From assembly GCA_028283655.1 (NCBI GenBank), contig JAPWKE010000003.1, positions 3,224,001-3,288,000 on the forward strand: a DNA stretch of 64,000 bases, written 5' to 3'. The position numbers were made by a program, and so were the translations under genes. Within the stretch, counting starts at the first letter, position 1, and each line of letters starts with the position of its first letter. This document shows positions 55,568-60,618 of the stretch, piece after piece. A model generated the notes under the pieces. That model saw only the letters and a program-made list of their open reading frames with translations, searched no databases and had not been told where the DNA came from. Source of the stretch: Acidobacteriaceae bacterium (GTDB lineage Bacteria > Acidobacteriota > Terriglobia > Terriglobales > Acidobacteriaceae).

Positions 55568-55706
55568 AGACATTAGAAAGGACAAGACACTAGACATCAG
55601 GGAGCGCAGAAGCCTCTCCCATGTAAGTCCCTCAGGCCCCCGGCACATATCGCCTCCCTGAAGCCGAGCGAAGCTCTAATGTCTAACGTCTCGCGGTCTA
55701 ATGTCT
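55568..55706. repeat. Array of AGACATTAG-type nonamers in both orientations
   Basis: AGACATTAG at 55568-55576 and a degenerate AGACACTAGACATCAG at 55585-55600 face CTAATGTCT at 55676-55684, CTAACGTCT at 55683-55691 and CTAATGTCT at 55698-55706. The words are the complement of each other, about 100 bases apart, and fill most of the 202-base space between the LolA-like gene and fabZ. Confidence 0.75.
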
Positions 55707-55759
55707 CCCGCCCCCGTCCGCAGCCCACATTCGGGGCAAACTTGATATTCTGACCAGCG

Positions 55760-56281
55760 ATGAGTGATTCCACTACACCCGAAGTTGTCGCGGAGCAGAC
55801 TCCCGCAAAACAGACCATGGACATCGTTGAAATCATGTCCATCCTGCCGCACCGCTACCCGTTCCTGCTGATCGACCGCGTGGTCGAAATGGAGCGCAAG
55901 CAGCGCATCGTCGCGATCAAGAACGTGACGATGAACGAGCCGCACTTCACCGGCCACTTCCCCGATTACCCGATCATGCCAGGAGTGCTGCAGATCGAAG
56001 CGATGGCACAGGCAGGCGGCGCTCTGCTGCTGACCGAAATCCCCGATCGCGCCGACAAGCTGATGGTCTTCACCGGCATCGAAGAAGCGAAGTTCCGCCG
56101 CCCCGTTACCCCGGGCGACCAGCTCCGCATTGAGGTCACCGTGGTGAACTGGCGCTCGCGTGCCGTGAAGATGGCAGGCGTCATCACCGTGGATGGCAAG
56201 CCGGTTTCAGAAGCGACGATCACCTGCCAGCTCGTTCCGCGTCCGCGCAAGACCGAAGCTGTAGCTGAACCGCAGGCATAA
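55760..56281 (+). CDS. fabZ: 3-hydroxyacyl-ACP dehydratase (FabZ)
   Basis: Dehydrates 3-hydroxyacyl-ACP in fatty acid elongation, as a hot-dog-fold dimer. The protein has 173 residues from ATG 55760. MDIVEIMSILPHRYPFLLIDRVVEM and NEPHFTGHFPDYPIMPGVLQIEAMAQAGG carry the active-site His and Glu. KFRRPVTPGDQLRIEVTVVNWRSRAVKM follows. Its N-terminal 18 residues and C-terminal RPRKTEAVAEPQA are extra. It opens the lipid A cluster before lpxA, a common order in Gram-negatives. Confidence 0.96.
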   Translation: MSDSTTPEVVAEQTPAKQTMDIVEIMSILPHRYPFLLIDRVVEMERKQRIVAIKNVTMNEPHFTGHFPDYPIMPGVLQIEAMAQAGGALLLTEIPDRADKLMVFTGIEEAKFRRPVTPGDQLRIEVTVVNWRSRAVKMAGVITVDGKPVSEATITCQLVPRPRKTEAVAEPQA

Positions 56282-56308
56282 GCGCTTACGTTACAGGTGA
56301 GGCAGGAA

Positions 56309-56368
56309 CGGTAGGTCACGGCTTCAGCCGTGACATCCGCTACCGAAAACGATCGCGGCTTTAGCCGC
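56309..56368. repeat. REP-like two-hairpin element (GGCTTCAGCC / GGCTTTAGCC)
   Basis: Hairpin one is GTCACGGCT-TC-AGCCGTGAC at 56315-56334, extended by CGGTAG/CTACCG arms to 56309-56345 with an internal bulge. Hairpin two is GCGGCT-TT-AGCCGC at 56355-56368. The two cores are the reverse complements of those at 3568-3618 and appear in the opposite order, as expected for the same element inverted. It fills most of the 104-base space between fabZ and lpxA. Confidence 0.8.
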
Positions 56369-56385
56369 TGAGGTAAGAACGGACG

Positions 56386-57189
56386 ATGAGCATTCATCCC
56401 ACCGCGAGCATTCACCCCACGGCCATCGTCGCCGATGGCGCGGTGATCGGCGCAGACTGCAAGATCGGCCCCTTCTGCACCGTCGGTGCCAACGTCACGC
56501 TGGGCGACGAGTGTGAGCTGATCTCGCACGTCGTGCTCGACGGCCACACCATCTTCGGCAAGAAGAACCGCATCTACTCGTTCGCTTGTCTGGGCATCGC
56601 ACCGCAGGACCTGAAGTACAACAACGAGCCCACGCAGCTCCTCGTTGGCGACGGCAACGACATCCGCGAGTACGTCACCATCTCGCGCGGCACGGTCGGC
56701 GGCGGCGGCATCACACGCCTCGGCTCAAACTGCCTCGTCATGGCGTACGTCCACATCGGCCACGACTCCGTAATCGGCAACGGCTGCATTCTGCCGAACG
56801 GCGCCACGCTGGCGGGCCACGTCACGGTGGAGGACTTCGCCGTCCTCAGCGCCAACGCACCGGTGCACCAGTTCTGCACGATCGGCCGTTACGCCTACAT
56901 CGGCGGCGGCACGACGATCACGCAGGACGTGCTGCCCTACTCGCTGACCTCGGTCGAACGCAAGAACCATGCCTACGGCCTGAATAAGGTCGGCCTGCAA
57001 CGCCGCGGCTTCACAGCCGAAGAGCTTCGCGAGCTGCAATCGGCGATGCGCTCGCTCACCAGCGGCAAGCTGAACACCACGCAGGCCTGCGAACAGATCA
57101 CCGACATGGTCGAATCCGGCGGCGCGGGCGAGCACGTAAAGTACCTGCTCGACTTCGTGAAGAAGAGCGAACGCGGAGTCATCAAATAA
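56386..57189 (+). CDS. lpxA: UDP-N-acetylglucosamine acyltransferase (LpxA)
   Basis: First enzyme of lipid A synthesis, acylating UDP-GlcNAc. The protein has 267 residues from ATG 56386, the usual length. The left-handed beta-helix hexapeptides begin IHPTASIHPTAIVADGAVIGADCKIGPFCTVGANV. The catalytic His lies in MAYVHIGHDSVIGNGCILPNGA. YAYIGGGTTITQDVLPYSLTSVERKNHAYGLNKVGLQRRGFTAEELRELQ is the family C-terminal section. It is followed by the toxin-antitoxin pair, then lpxI. Confidence 0.98.
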   Translation: MSIHPTASIHPTAIVADGAVIGADCKIGPFCTVGANVTLGDECELISHVVLDGHTIFGKKNRIYSFACLGIAPQDLKYNNEPTQLLVGDGNDIREYVTISRGTVGGGGITRLGSNCLVMAYVHIGHDSVIGNGCILPNGATLAGHVTVEDFAVLSANAPVHQFCTIGRYAYIGGGTTITQDVLPYSLTSVERKNHAYGLNKVGLQRRGFTAEELRELQSAMRSLTSGKLNTTQACEQITDMVESGGAGEHVKYLLDFVKKSERGVIK

Positions 57190-57200
57190 CGAATGCATCT

Positions 57201-57220
57201 ATAGCACGGAGTGCTATACT
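57201..57220 (+). promoter_or_regulatory. Operator palindrome overlapping a -10 box of the toxin-antitoxin operon
   Basis: ATAGCAC-GGA-GTGCTAT at 57201-57217 is a perfect 7-bp inverted repeat. A TATACT -10 sequence at 57215-57220 overlaps its right arm. No good -35 box is visible. The toxin start GTG 57228 is only 7 bases after the -10 box and has no Shine-Dalgarno, so the transcript could be leaderless. Palindromes of this kind are the usual autorepression sites of HigBA-type systems. Confidence 0.65.
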
Positions 57221-57227
57221 TCGTTCC

Positions 57228-57596
57228 GTGCTTCGAATCTTCAAAAGCCGCGAGTTTGCTCGTTTTGCAAAGCGCTCCGGGCTTAGTGATCAAGCATTGC
57301 TTCATGCCGTGGAGCAGGTTGAGAGCGGATTAATCGATGCAGACCTTGGCGGCGGGGTCTACAAGCAGCGCGTTGCAAGGCCCGGCAAAGGAAAGTCTGG
57401 CGGGTTTCGAACCATTCTTCTGATGCGTGCCGGTGAGCTGATTCTTTTCGTGGATGGTTTTGCCAAAAGCGAAAGAGACAACATCACGACCGAGGAGCTC
57501 CTCGCTTTCCGGATGGTGGCGAAGGGTCTCCTTTACGACAAACAAAAACTTGCAGAAGCAGTCGAACGCAAAGTTCTCGTGGAGATAAAGCGATGA
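57228..57596 (+). CDS. RelE/HigB-like toxin
   Basis: The protein has 122 residues from GTG 57228. MLRIFKSREFARFAKRSGLSDQALLHAVEQVESGLIDADLGGGVYKQRVARPGKGKSGGFRTILLMRAGELILFVDGFAKSERDNITTEELLAFRMVAK is characteristic of the HigB-like, PF06296-type RelE superfamily. The KQRVARPGKGKSGGFRTIL strand carries the basic residues that contact mRNA in this family. It is 38 bases after lpxA and overlaps the antitoxin by 4 bases (ATGA). Toxin-first order is the HigBA pattern. Confidence 0.9.
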   Translation: MLRIFKSREFARFAKRSGLSDQALLHAVEQVESGLIDADLGGGVYKQRVARPGKGKSGGFRTILLMRAGELILFVDGFAKSERDNITTEELLAFRMVAKGLLYDKQKLAEAVERKVLVEIKR

Positions 57597-57919
57597 CGAT
57601 CAAAGCAGCGGTATACAAGAGCAAACGTCTGGGGACGGCTCATCGACTTGCCAAGGAACTCAGTGACGCTGGCATGTTGGAGAAGCGCACTATGCGCGAT
57701 CTCGACACACTCTGCCTCACGCCTGCCAGGCCACTTACACCGAGCAAGATTGTTTCTATCCGCCGTCGCGAAAAGGCCAGCCAGGCGGTCTTTGCCTTCC
57801 ACCTGGGCGTGACGGTCAGCCTTATCTCTCAATGGGAGCGCGGAGAAAAGAAGCCCAGCGGACCATCGCTGAAGCTGCTCGCACTCGTAGAGAAGAACGG
57901 CCTCGACTGGGTCGCATGA
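57593..57919 (+). CDS. HigA-like antitoxin with XRE helix-turn-helix
   Basis: The protein has 108 residues from ATG 57593, with GGAG nine bases upstream. The N-terminal part (residues ~1-50) would bind the toxin. The C-terminal VSIRRREKASQAVFAFHLGVTVSLISQWERGEKKPSGPSLKLLALVEKNGLDWV is a Cro/C1-type HTH, expected to bind the palindrome at 57201. Its stop TGA overlaps the start ATG of lpxI by 4 bases (57916-57919). Confidence 0.9.
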   Translation: MTIKAAVYKSKRLGTAHRLAKELSDAGMLEKRTMRDLDTLCLTPARPLTPSKIVSIRRREKASQAVFAFHLGVTVSLISQWERGEKKPSGPSLKLLALVEKNGLDWVA

Positions 57920-58803
57920 GCAAGCACTCCCACATCGATAGGAATGCGCTCGGTCTCATCGCCGGTAACGGACGCTTCCCCTTCCTGCTGCTCGACGCAG
58001 CGCGTGCTTACGGCCTGCGCGTCGTGGTGGCTGCCATCAAGGAAGAGACCGATCTTGAGATCGACGCGCGTGCTACAGCTGATCCTGAAAACATCCGCGT
58101 TCACTGGCTCTCGCTTGGCGAACTCTCCAAACTCATCGAGACCTTCCAGCGCGAAGGCGTCGCGAACGCCGTGATGGCCGGGCAGGTGAAACACAAGCAG
58201 ATCTTCTCCTCCATCCGCCCCGACTGGCGACTCGCCAAGCTGCTGCTGAACCTGCGCACGCGCTCCACGGACATGCTGCTCGGCGCGGTTGCCAAGGTGC
58301 TCGAAGACGAAGGCATCCATCTCGTCTCCTCCACCGCCTACCTCGAGCCCATGCTCGCGCCCGCAGGGGTGCTCACACGGCGCGCGCCCGACGAAACCGA
58401 ACTCGGCGACATCGCCTACGGCCTGAACGTCGCGCGCGGAATCGCTGGCTTCGACCTCGGGCAGACCGTCGTCATCGCCGCGGGAGCCTGCGTCGCCGTC
58501 GAGGCCATGGAAGGCACAGACGCCACCATTCTGCGCGCAGGCGAGCTCTTCCGCACACTCGACGCCGAAGCCAGCACGCTCGAGCGCAAACTCACCGTCG
58601 TGAAGGTCGCCAAACCGAAGCAGGACATGCGATTCGACGTCCCCGTGTGCGGCGTGCCGACGATCGAGACCATGAAGGCCGCAAGAGCCACCTGCCTCTG
58701 CATCGAAGCTGGCCGCACCCTGCTCTTCGACCGCGAAGCCATGGTCGCAGCCGCCGACGCGGCCGGGATCAGCATCGTGGCAGAACCAGCGCCTGCCCTT
58801 TAG
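57916..58803 (+). CDS. lpxI: UDP-2,3-diacylglucosamine diphosphatase LpxI
   Basis: Hydrolyses UDP-2,3-diacylglucosamine to lipid X in the lipid A pathway; it replaces LpxH in many bacteria. I start it at ATG 57916, which overlaps the antitoxin stop by ATGA, giving 295 residues. It has no Shine-Dalgarno of its own, fitting translational coupling. LGLIAGNGRFPFLLLDAARAYGLRVVVAAIKEE is the DUF1009 N-terminal signature, then AVMAGQVKHKQIFSSIRPDWRLAKLL, GIAGFDLGQTVVIAAGACVAVEAMEGTDATILRAGEL, VAKPKQDMRFDVPVCGVPTIETMKAARATCLCIEAGRTLLFDRE. Function is secure from these motifs. Confidence 0.95.
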   Translation: MSKHSHIDRNALGLIAGNGRFPFLLLDAARAYGLRVVVAAIKEETDLEIDARATADPENIRVHWLSLGELSKLIETFQREGVANAVMAGQVKHKQIFSSIRPDWRLAKLLLNLRTRSTDMLLGAVAKVLEDEGIHLVSSTAYLEPMLAPAGVLTRRAPDETELGDIAYGLNVARGIAGFDLGQTVVIAAGACVAVEAMEGTDATILRAGELFRTLDAEASTLERKLTVVKVAKPKQDMRFDVPVCGVPTIETMKAARATCLCIEAGRTLLFDREAMVAAADAAGISIVAEPAPAL

Positions 58804-58846
58804 TCGCTCCAGCACAGTAGAATCTCCAGCAAGGAGATCTCCCACC

Positions 58847-59371
58847 ATGCACCTCCGCAAAATTCTCGCTGCCACGCTGCTGTCGCTGACGCCGCTAGCC
58901 GCCGTTGCCGCCACGCTGCCCATTGGGGCCGTCGCACCGAACTTCACGCTGCCCAACCAGGAGAACAAGCCCGTCTCGCTCGCCGACTACAAGGGCAAGT
59001 GGGTCGTGCTCTACTTCTACCCCAAGGACCAGACCTCCGGCTGCTCGAAGGAAGCGCATAACTTCCAGGGCGATCTGCCCAAGTACGAAGCCGCCAACGC
59101 GGTCGTCCTCGGCGTCTCGCTCGACACCGTCGAGAGCCACAAGACCTGGTGCACCAAGGACGGCTTCTCCTTCAAGATGCTCGCCGACCCCGACCACAAG
59201 GTGGTGGACGCGTACGGCGTGCCGGTGAAGAGCTTCAACGGAGCAAGCTACGCGCAGCGTGACACCTTCCTCATCTCGCCCCAGGGTAAGGTCGTCAAGA
59301 GCTGGGAGGTTCACGACATCGCGAACCACTCCACCGAAGTGCTGGCAACGATCGCCGCAGAAAAGAAGTAG
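58847..59371 (+). CDS. Secreted peroxiredoxin (AhpC/TSA, BCP-like)
   Basis: The protein has 174 residues from ATG 58847, with AAGGAG upstream and signal peptide MHLRKILAATLLSLTPLAAVAA. GAVAPNFTLPNQENKPVSLADYKGKWVVLYFYPKDQTSGCSKEAHNFQ carries the peroxidatic Cys in SGC, in a variant of the usual TPGCT motif. LGVSLDTVESHKTWCTKDGFSFKMLADPDHKVVDAYGV adds a second Cys (resolving candidate). QRDTFLISPQGKVVKSWE follows. Thiol peroxidase of the periplasm. Confidence 0.92.
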   Translation: MHLRKILAATLLSLTPLAAVAATLPIGAVAPNFTLPNQENKPVSLADYKGKWVVLYFYPKDQTSGCSKEAHNFQGDLPKYEAANAVVLGVSLDTVESHKTWCTKDGFSFKMLADPDHKVVDAYGVPVKSFNGASYAQRDTFLISPQGKVVKSWEVHDIANHSTEVLATIAAEKK

Positions 59372-59400
59372 CTCAAAGCGCCTCACAGATAGCAGCAGAC

Positions 59401-59455: not shown

Positions 59456-60379
59456 CTACTTCTTAGCAGCAGTCTTCTTGGCAGCCTTCTTCGGAGCGGC
59501 CTTCTTCGCGACAACCTTCTTCGCGACAGCCTTCTTGACGGCCTTCTTCGGAGCGACCTTCTTCGCGACAACCTTCTTCGCGACGGCCTTCTTCACTGCC
59601 TTCTTCGCGACAACCTTCTTCGCGACCGCCTTCTTCGGTGCAGCCTTCTTCACAGCCTTCTTCGTTGCCAAGGTCTTACCTCTCATAGTTGAGTTTTTGG
59701 TGCTGGTGCTCTTGTTGCCAACTGCCTTCTTAGGGGCAGCCTTACCGCCGCGCAGAGCACCGGACTTCTTCGCGGCAGAACTTGTAATCTTCTTCGCAGC
59801 CTTCTTCGGCGCAATCTTCTTGGCAGCTTTCTTAGGAGCTACCTTCTTTGCGACCTTCTTCGGAGCGGCTTTCTTCACAGCCTTTTTCGGAGCGACCTTC
59901 TTGGGTGCTACCTTCTTCGGGGCGATTTTCTTGGCAGCCTTCTTGGGTGCCGCTTTTTTAGCAGTCGCTTTCTTCGGAGCCGCCTTTTTCGGTGCTGCTT
60001 TCTTGGGCGCTACCTTCTTCGGGGTTGCCTTCTTGGCAGCCTTCTTCGCCACCGGCTTTACGGCAGCAGCCGAAGCCTTCAATGCTTCACCCACAGTGCT
60101 CTCTGTTTCGCTCGGCACCGGCTCAGCCGACATCGTCTCTGCAGGCTCGTAGCTGTCCACCGGATTCGAAGGCGCAGCACTCAGCTCCGCTTCTTCCGCG
60201 TGATTGCTTGAAGCCGCCGGCTCATCGTCTTCGACGATCGAGCTCACCGCACGCGTCGTGCTGAACTCTTCCTCTTCGTCCTCGTCATCGAGTTCCGGCT
60301 CAAGGTCGTCGTTGTCTTCTTCCGGTTCCTGATCGTCGTATGCGGCAGCGTACAGCTTGATGGTTTCGTCTTCGTGCAT
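59456..60379 (-). CDS. Histone H1-like protein with acidic head and Lys/Ala/Pro tail
   Basis: The protein has 307 residues from ATG 60379, with GGGG six bases upstream. Residues 1-100 are strongly acidic (DDQEPEEDNDDLEPELDDEDEEEEF, then Ser/Glu-rich). Residues ~107-307 are almost all Lys, Ala, Val and Pro, in repeats such as AAPKKA, VAPKK, AVKKAV and VAKKV, with a short unlike stretch (GALRGGKAAPKKAVGNKSTSTKNSTMRGK) in the middle. The tail is expected to bind DNA as in H1 and bacterial AlgP/Hc1-like proteins. An acidic head could act as a self-shielding or protein-binding domain; that is an inference. The long tandem repeat makes indels likely between strains. Confidence 0.85.
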   Translation of the reverse strand: MHEDETIKLYAAAYDDQEPEEDNDDLEPELDDEDEEEEFSTTRAVSSIVEDDEPAASSNHAEEAELSAAPSNPVDSYEPAETMSAEPVPSETESTVGEALKASAAAVKPVAKKAAKKATPKKVAPKKAAPKKAAPKKATAKKAAPKKAAKKIAPKKVAPKKVAPKKAVKKAAPKKVAKKVAPKKAAKKIAPKKAAKKITSSAAKKSGALRGGKAAPKKAVGNKSTSTKNSTMRGKTLATKKAVKKAAPKKAVAKKVVAKKAVKKAVAKKVVAKKVAPKKAVKKAVAKKVVAKKAAPKKAAKKTAAKK

Positions 60380-60618
60380 CGTTTCCCCGTCTCCGTGCGT
60401 TTGTTGCAATCGCTCTAGCGTTTCGACGCTTGCCGTCTCTATCCGACTTCGTTCGCCGTGTGTACTTCTTGCAAAGCAACACACACTGCACGGAAGCTTA
60501 GCAACAGGATTACGCGCGGTGCAATGAAATAGCAAGAGCCTTTTTTGATGCGCGCAGTTTTTCCTTCACACATCCACACGCTCTCATGAGATGAACCGCA
60601 TCATCCACCTGTTGCTCG

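Follow-up and report, generated by a model that had tools for sequence, protein, structure and literature searches.

We propose, with a probability of about 0.78, that the two small genes between lpxA and lpxI are a mobile HigB2/HigA2-like type II toxin–antitoxin (TA) module residing in a recurrent TA insertion locus, where the need for lpxI translation keeps inserts coupled to this gene. The lpxA-lpxI gap has the look of a docking site used repeatedly, not of a seat of dedicated lipid A control. The window, the whole stretch of 64,000 nt that was analysed, belongs to a Granulicella-like acidobacterium, a soil bacterium. In it lpxA, toxin, antitoxin and lpxI lie on the forward strand (Table 1). 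The order fabZ-lpxA-toxin-antitoxin-lpxI on one strand, put forward in the initial annotation, is confirmed by the coordinates (55760-58803), as are the toxin start 38 nt after lpxA and the ATGA overlaps of 4 nt at both the toxin/antitoxin and the antitoxin/lpxI junctions. On its left side the module does not overlap lpxA. The claim that lpxI has no Shine-Dalgarno sequence of its own also held, as no such stretch is visible by eye directly before the ATG at 57916, and no in-frame ATG, GTG or TTG alternative occurs between this codon and the conserved LGLIAGNG motif. LpxI is probably essential in this host, because no match to the LpxH model was found in the window genome. A second genome of the genus (G001, locus L003) has the identical gene order and the same two 4-nt overlaps, and its toxin matches without any difference a protein that bears the name Granulicella cerasi. 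The surroundings hold two further features: a fabZ-lpxA spacer of 104 nt (56282-56385) with a palindromic 25-mer, which has one further copy in the genome with 2 mismatches, and, downstream of the locus on the reverse strand (59456-60535), a long repetitive open reading frame that is lysine/alanine-rich and histone-H1-like by eye. The fabZ-lpxA gap is at most 30 nt in all 102 loci measured, the window not being among them.

Table 1. Features of the fabZ-lpxI region, in window coordinates.
Feature	Position	Strand	Evidence or remark
fabZ (FabA-like domain)	55760..56281	+	PF07977 3.4e-35
lpxA, left flank of the putative docking site	56386..57189	+	NF003657 and TIGR01852 above cut-off
Operator-like palindrome, 19 nt, TATAGCAC-GGA-GTGCTATA	57200..57218	+	0 mismatches
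HigB2-like toxin (PF06296), GTG start	57228..57596	+	38 nt downstream of lpxA
HigA2-like XRE antitoxin	57593..57919	+	HTH_3 2.2e-07; HigA-2 1.2e-05 over residues 47-102
lpxI, right flank	57916..58803	+	LpxI_N and LpxI_C; start codon overlaps antitoxin stop

The toxin and antitoxin are related to HigB-2 and HigA-2 by profile and fold, and the traits of a HigBA-type module are present: a RelE-fold HigB-like toxin, a toxin gene that comes first and an XRE/HTH antitoxin related to HigA. The original identification as HigBA-type is thus upheld by profile and fold, by real overlaps and by an operator-like palindrome of the module's own. HigBA-2 of Vibrio cholerae shares the toxin-first order with the window module and has an operator, for which the window palindrome is a candidate. 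In its solved structures (PDB 5jaa, 8a0x) a RelE-fold toxin is likewise paired with an XRE antitoxin. The two systems differ in that the window toxin, although its predicted model has HigB2 as the closest solved structure, is only 17% identical to it over 98 aligned residues, and in that the window module adjoins lpxI. By analogy with the family, we presume that the toxin cleaves mRNA in a ribosome-dependent manner and that the antitoxin inhibits it and acts as an autorepressor. The module genes look to be under purifying selection in the pairs compared, as judged from codon substitutions: dN/dS is 0.115 for the antitoxin between the window and G001 (toxin dN 0.19, with dS saturated), and 0.066 for the toxin and 0.104 for the antitoxin between L047 and L123.

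The palindrome, initially placed at 57201, is exact and lies one base earlier; at up to 3 mismatches the chance expectation is 0.02 per window. A -10-like TATACT, read by eye, overlaps it just upstream of the toxin start, and the toxin mRNA is probably leaderless. A consensus scan of 55600-58900 returned no standard sigma-70 promoter, and no known structured RNA matched Rfam at gathering score in 55600-59400. Allowing up to 4 mismatches, the palindrome recurs in 7/7 lpxI-linked toxin/XRE places (75 nt searched) and in 26/28 other toxin/XRE places (130 nt searched), against a background of 9 in 3080 75-mers at the same tolerance. As a candidate operator it is present and conserved with the module and, judging from this distribution, it belongs to the module and would travel with it.

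The junction was surveyed in lpxI loci from 25 of the 28 genus genomes, in those of the best 80 among 467 named relatives and in 120 further loci among the family matches listed, many of the loci being derived from metagenome-assembled genomes. Loci whose lpxI DNA differed at no more than 6 positions in about 600 nt were treated as duplicates, and loci with no lpxA in the fetched stretch were dropped from the junction counts (38 of 154 unique loci in the first survey, 1 of 13 later). This left 128 unique loci with lpxA upstream of lpxI, 116 from the first survey and 12 later. At L020 (G023), the 1500 nt preceding lpxI contain nothing that matches lpxA. The comparison of relatives for which the initial annotation had called answers in two ways: the junction does carry a TA or TA-like pair in 24 of the 128 loci, but in 68, the commonest state, the gap is under 130 nt, which we count as no insert. 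One of these 68 is G022, a member of the same three-species group as the window and G001. The pairs are of five kinds. PF06296/XRE occurs in 8 of the 24 loci and Gp49 (HigB)/HTH_37 (HigA) in 8, one locus having both; DUF4160/DUF2442 occupies 7 of the 128; and single loci hold a BrnT pair and a DUF6036 nucleotidyltransferase with a 63-residue partner. As the partners of BrnT and DUF6036 gave no Pfam match, these two pairs are TA-like by organisation only. A Gfo/Idh-like oxidoreductase fills the gap in 18 loci (L060, L061, L062, L069, L070, L074 and others), a recurrent tenant that we take to be of the Gfo/Idh/MocA type, and something else fills it in another 18, among which TA kinds beyond our 13 seed proteins may have been missed, since pairs were detected with these seeds and by eye. 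At L148 the opposite-strand reading frames of the gap presumably resemble a RES/Xre TA pair. With these 18 Gfo/Idh-like and 18 other loci among the 128, the gap is permissive in general and not reserved for TA pairs. On a tree of LpxA and LpxI, TA presence or absence requires at least 16 changes, the PF06296, Gp49 and DUF4160 pairs at least 6 each, and the junction state at least 36, counts that cannot separate gain from loss.

Is the junction favoured by TA pairs, or are these modules simply common? Among 398 family genomes, PF06296 has 60 strong places (E up to 1.2e-28). The lpxA-lpxI gap accounts for 7 of them; at least 48 lie elsewhere, as judged from fetched DNA for 28 and from coordinates for 20 (on another contig or far away), and 5 are unplaced because lpxI was not listed. 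The pair is not specific to lpxI, and these places amount to what the initial annotation had named as refuting its proposal, the same pair away from lpxI in related genomes. Gp49 has 63 places in the 28 genus genomes, 8 of them at lpxA-lpxI; DUF4160 has 24 places within the genus and only 1 at the junction, which counts against a hotspot. As a control, the flanks of 60 TA places elsewhere (28 PF06296 and 32 Gp49), none beside lpxA or lpxI, were compared. They occupy 58 junctions, with 56 places alone and two pairs sharing a junction, one pair being made up of G003 and G004, which are closely related by LpxA/LpxI; in 9 further pairs of places the shared gene lies on just one side. The 14 lpxI-linked loci in the same test fall into one cluster. 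More TA pairs are found at lpxA-lpxI than at the other junctions compared, the comparison taking in 14 of 24 lpxI-linked loci, 28 of 53 other strong PF06296 places and 32 of 55 other Gp49 places, so that the control stands for 60 of at least 103 known places and not for all junctions of the genomes. Fourteen of the 60 control places were oriented by hand, and 6 lie in stretches under 3500 bases, where some shared junctions may be missed.

What the inserts have in common is their right-hand end. In each of the 21 TA loci from the first survey, the final TA gene stops between -23 and +24 nt from an in-frame lpxI start, with 15 loci overlapping lpxI and 9 showing the ATGA arrangement (-4); the distances cover these 21 loci, without L279, L286 and L295, and the lpxI start codons in relatives are the nearest in frame, chosen by hand. 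By comparison, XRE antitoxin genes of modules located elsewhere have a coupled candidate reading frame in 2 of 27 cases (of 28, one antitoxin not being found), under a filter stricter than at the lpxI loci: same strand, at least 110 residues, highest GC3 and a start within 30 nt. Coupling seems, from these gene positions, to belong to the place and not to the module. Across the 21 inserts GC content is 50.5-59.8%, against 57.7-67.7% in the flanks. The initial annotation had regarded an insertion placed precisely at two start/stop junctions as unusual, a view that the comparison does not support. There is no overlap with lpxA on the left, and unrelated families show the coupling on the right as well, which is what a need to preserve lpxI translation would predict. 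No special mechanism is required to explain the double junction.

In the model that we favour, a HigB2/HigA2-like module would have entered the lipid A operon between lpxA and lpxI, in a gap that tolerates inserts and at which TA pairs may arrive often, and only those arrivals that keep lpxI translated would be seen today. The last TA gene would end on or near the lpxI start because only inserts leaving lpxI translated survive, and lpxI would then be read by termination-reinitiation. The module promoter probably also transcribes lpxI, as a side effect. Spread between species would be by horizontal transfer, perhaps through recombination within lpxA and lpxI, the conserved genes on either side. 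Direct repeats of at least 9 nt were absent from the module ends, which thus give no pointer to a mechanism of insertion.

A few loci capture the turnover of inserts. In G003 the order is lpxA-higB(Gp49)-higA-lpxI. In G004, a near relative, lpxA is followed directly by a toxin/XRE module that has its own palindrome and occupies the place of the promoter region and the front of higB; higA and the rear of higB are still there, as is the ATGA shared with lpxI. Between these two genomes the dN/dS of higA is 0.068 over 85 codons. Three 80-nt windows around higA are 82-89% identical, compared with 90-100% in the remaining windows of the alignment that lie outside the insert, a pattern that suggests further recombination around higA. 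Between two near relatives, given by locus as L006 and L005, the higA region is more diverged than its flanks, suggesting mosaic recombination. An intact, coupled antitoxin accompanies an interrupted Gp49 toxin in G025 and G027, and in G079 a PF06296 toxin has a frame change near a T run beside an intact antitoxin; all three are fragmented assemblies (about 210 contigs in G025, about 270 in G027) and the broken toxins may be errors.

How often the PF06296/XRE module itself entered the gap bears on a different history: a single ancient insertion at lpxA-lpxI that was passed on by vertical descent and repeatedly lost, with the variety of pairs arising by later replacement in place. Within the family, the seven lpxI-linked modules do form one clade (96/95, against 17 others) in a combined tree built without 10 more distant places and L243, where no antitoxin was found; the clade stands at 93/94 with antitoxins alone and at 74/71 with toxins alone. 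When 65 wider homologues are added (65 of the 120 among the matches listed, of 1556, as protein sequences without genomic context), the best toxin tree needs 3 changes, 2 of them forced by starred branches, although one lpxI-linked clade is not rejected either (AU p 0.418). A single lpxI-bound PF06296 lineage thus holds within the family, and with wider homologues it is not upheld, yet not rejected. The G004 module groups with Terriglobus-like species (99/97) and not with G000 and G001, though uniting the three modules of the genus is not rejected at 0.05 (AU p 0.071). Several captures of PF06296/XRE are favoured by these trees, not proven, and five unrelated kinds of pair would need separate arrivals in any case. 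Overall we regard a single ancient insertion as rather unlikely. We find it unlikely, too, that the modules are selfish elements persisting by linkage because their removal disrupts an essential lpxI. This reading has in its favour a start codon shared with the antitoxin stop and a genome in which no LpxH was found; it fits poorly with the gap under 130 nt being the commonest state and with at least 36 state changes on the tree, which indicate an insert that is not hard to gain or lose. For the same reasons, the lock-in invoked in the initial annotation, in which the module cannot be lost without harming lpxI, is not supported; G022 is a close relative with a gap under 130 nt.

Regulation of lpxI is the theme of two more readings. 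TA modules might have been recruited as regulators, an antitoxin-autoregulated promoter feeding lpxI so that lipid A flux is tied to the state of the TA system (stress, antitoxin turnover). The palindrome and -10-like sequence directly upstream, the coupling of lpxI to the antitoxin, and antitoxins that stay intact and coupled beside a cut or interrupted Gp49 toxin (G004, G025, G027), with the low dN/dS of higA between G004 and G003, can all be read in this sense. Against it, a gap under 130 nt suffices in 68 of 128 loci, unrelated families would each have to be recruited separately, and PF06296/XRE modules of this kind are also present at sites away from lpxI. Kept antitoxins are also expected if they serve as mere coupled upstream frames or if little time has elapsed, and for G025 and G027 the state of the assemblies leaves room for error. 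We therefore hold recruitment to be unlikely, and the lipid A-specific role that the initial annotation had suggested finds no support in a junction with five unrelated kinds of pair, most loci without an insert, and at least 48 of 60 PF06296 places elsewhere. A bolder form of our own proposal would have a true docking site, at which unrelated TA pairs are captured repeatedly because reinitiation from antitoxin to lpxI provides LpxI in amounts that can be adjusted and are subject to autorepression, and antitoxins outlast toxins as regulators of lipid A dosage; this we think unlikely. We retain the simpler proposal of a permissive gap in which lpxI translation has to be preserved.

How does the junction compare with known TA insertion loci? 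In enterobacteria, relA-mazEF-mazG, dinB-yafNO-yafP and folA-ccd-apaH, as described in PMC7167474, also have a TA pair between two core genes. According to the same paper, relA-mazG and dinB-yafP are undisturbed in strains lacking the TA found there in others, parDE occupies relA-mazG in Salmonella and REP sequences occupy folA-apaH, insertion is likely to be independent of the functions of the host operons, and the mechanisms of TA movement and integration are unelucidated. The lpxA-lpxI locus resembles these loci in having an empty pair in relatives and different elements in the same place. It is distinguished from what is described there by five TA or TA-like kinds within one bacterial family and by a downstream lipid A gene, with the last TA gene in or near its start codon and one pair overrun by another. 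The DUF4160/DUF2442 pairs, known at 7 of our 128 loci from sequence, are of the same kind as a pair named dhiTA in Dickeya (PMC8198452) and a Thermus plasmid pair that behaves like a TA system (PMC12724237); in contrast to these, two lpxI-linked DUF2442 proteins (L175 and L129) have a long C-terminal extension. In Granulicella WH15, HigAB is upregulated at high sugar (PMC7074687, the main text of which does not contain 'lpx'). No published report of a TA pair at lpxA and lpxI was found in the literature searched, where the one match for TA together with LpxI is a Fusobacterium annotation paper. We suggest from the comparison of gene neighbourhoods that lpxA-lpxI is a new and unusually varied example of a TA insertion locus, with a neighbour that is probably essential and appears to be translationally coupled. 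Within one family the junction can be seen empty, occupied by five kinds of pair, with one pair overrun by another (G003 versus G004), and with interrupted toxins beside intact antitoxins. This natural series is handy for testing whether the placement of TA modules in core operons is neutral, selfish or regulatory. If the output of lpxI does depend on the antitoxin, outer-membrane synthesis in these bacteria would be tied to the state of a TA system.
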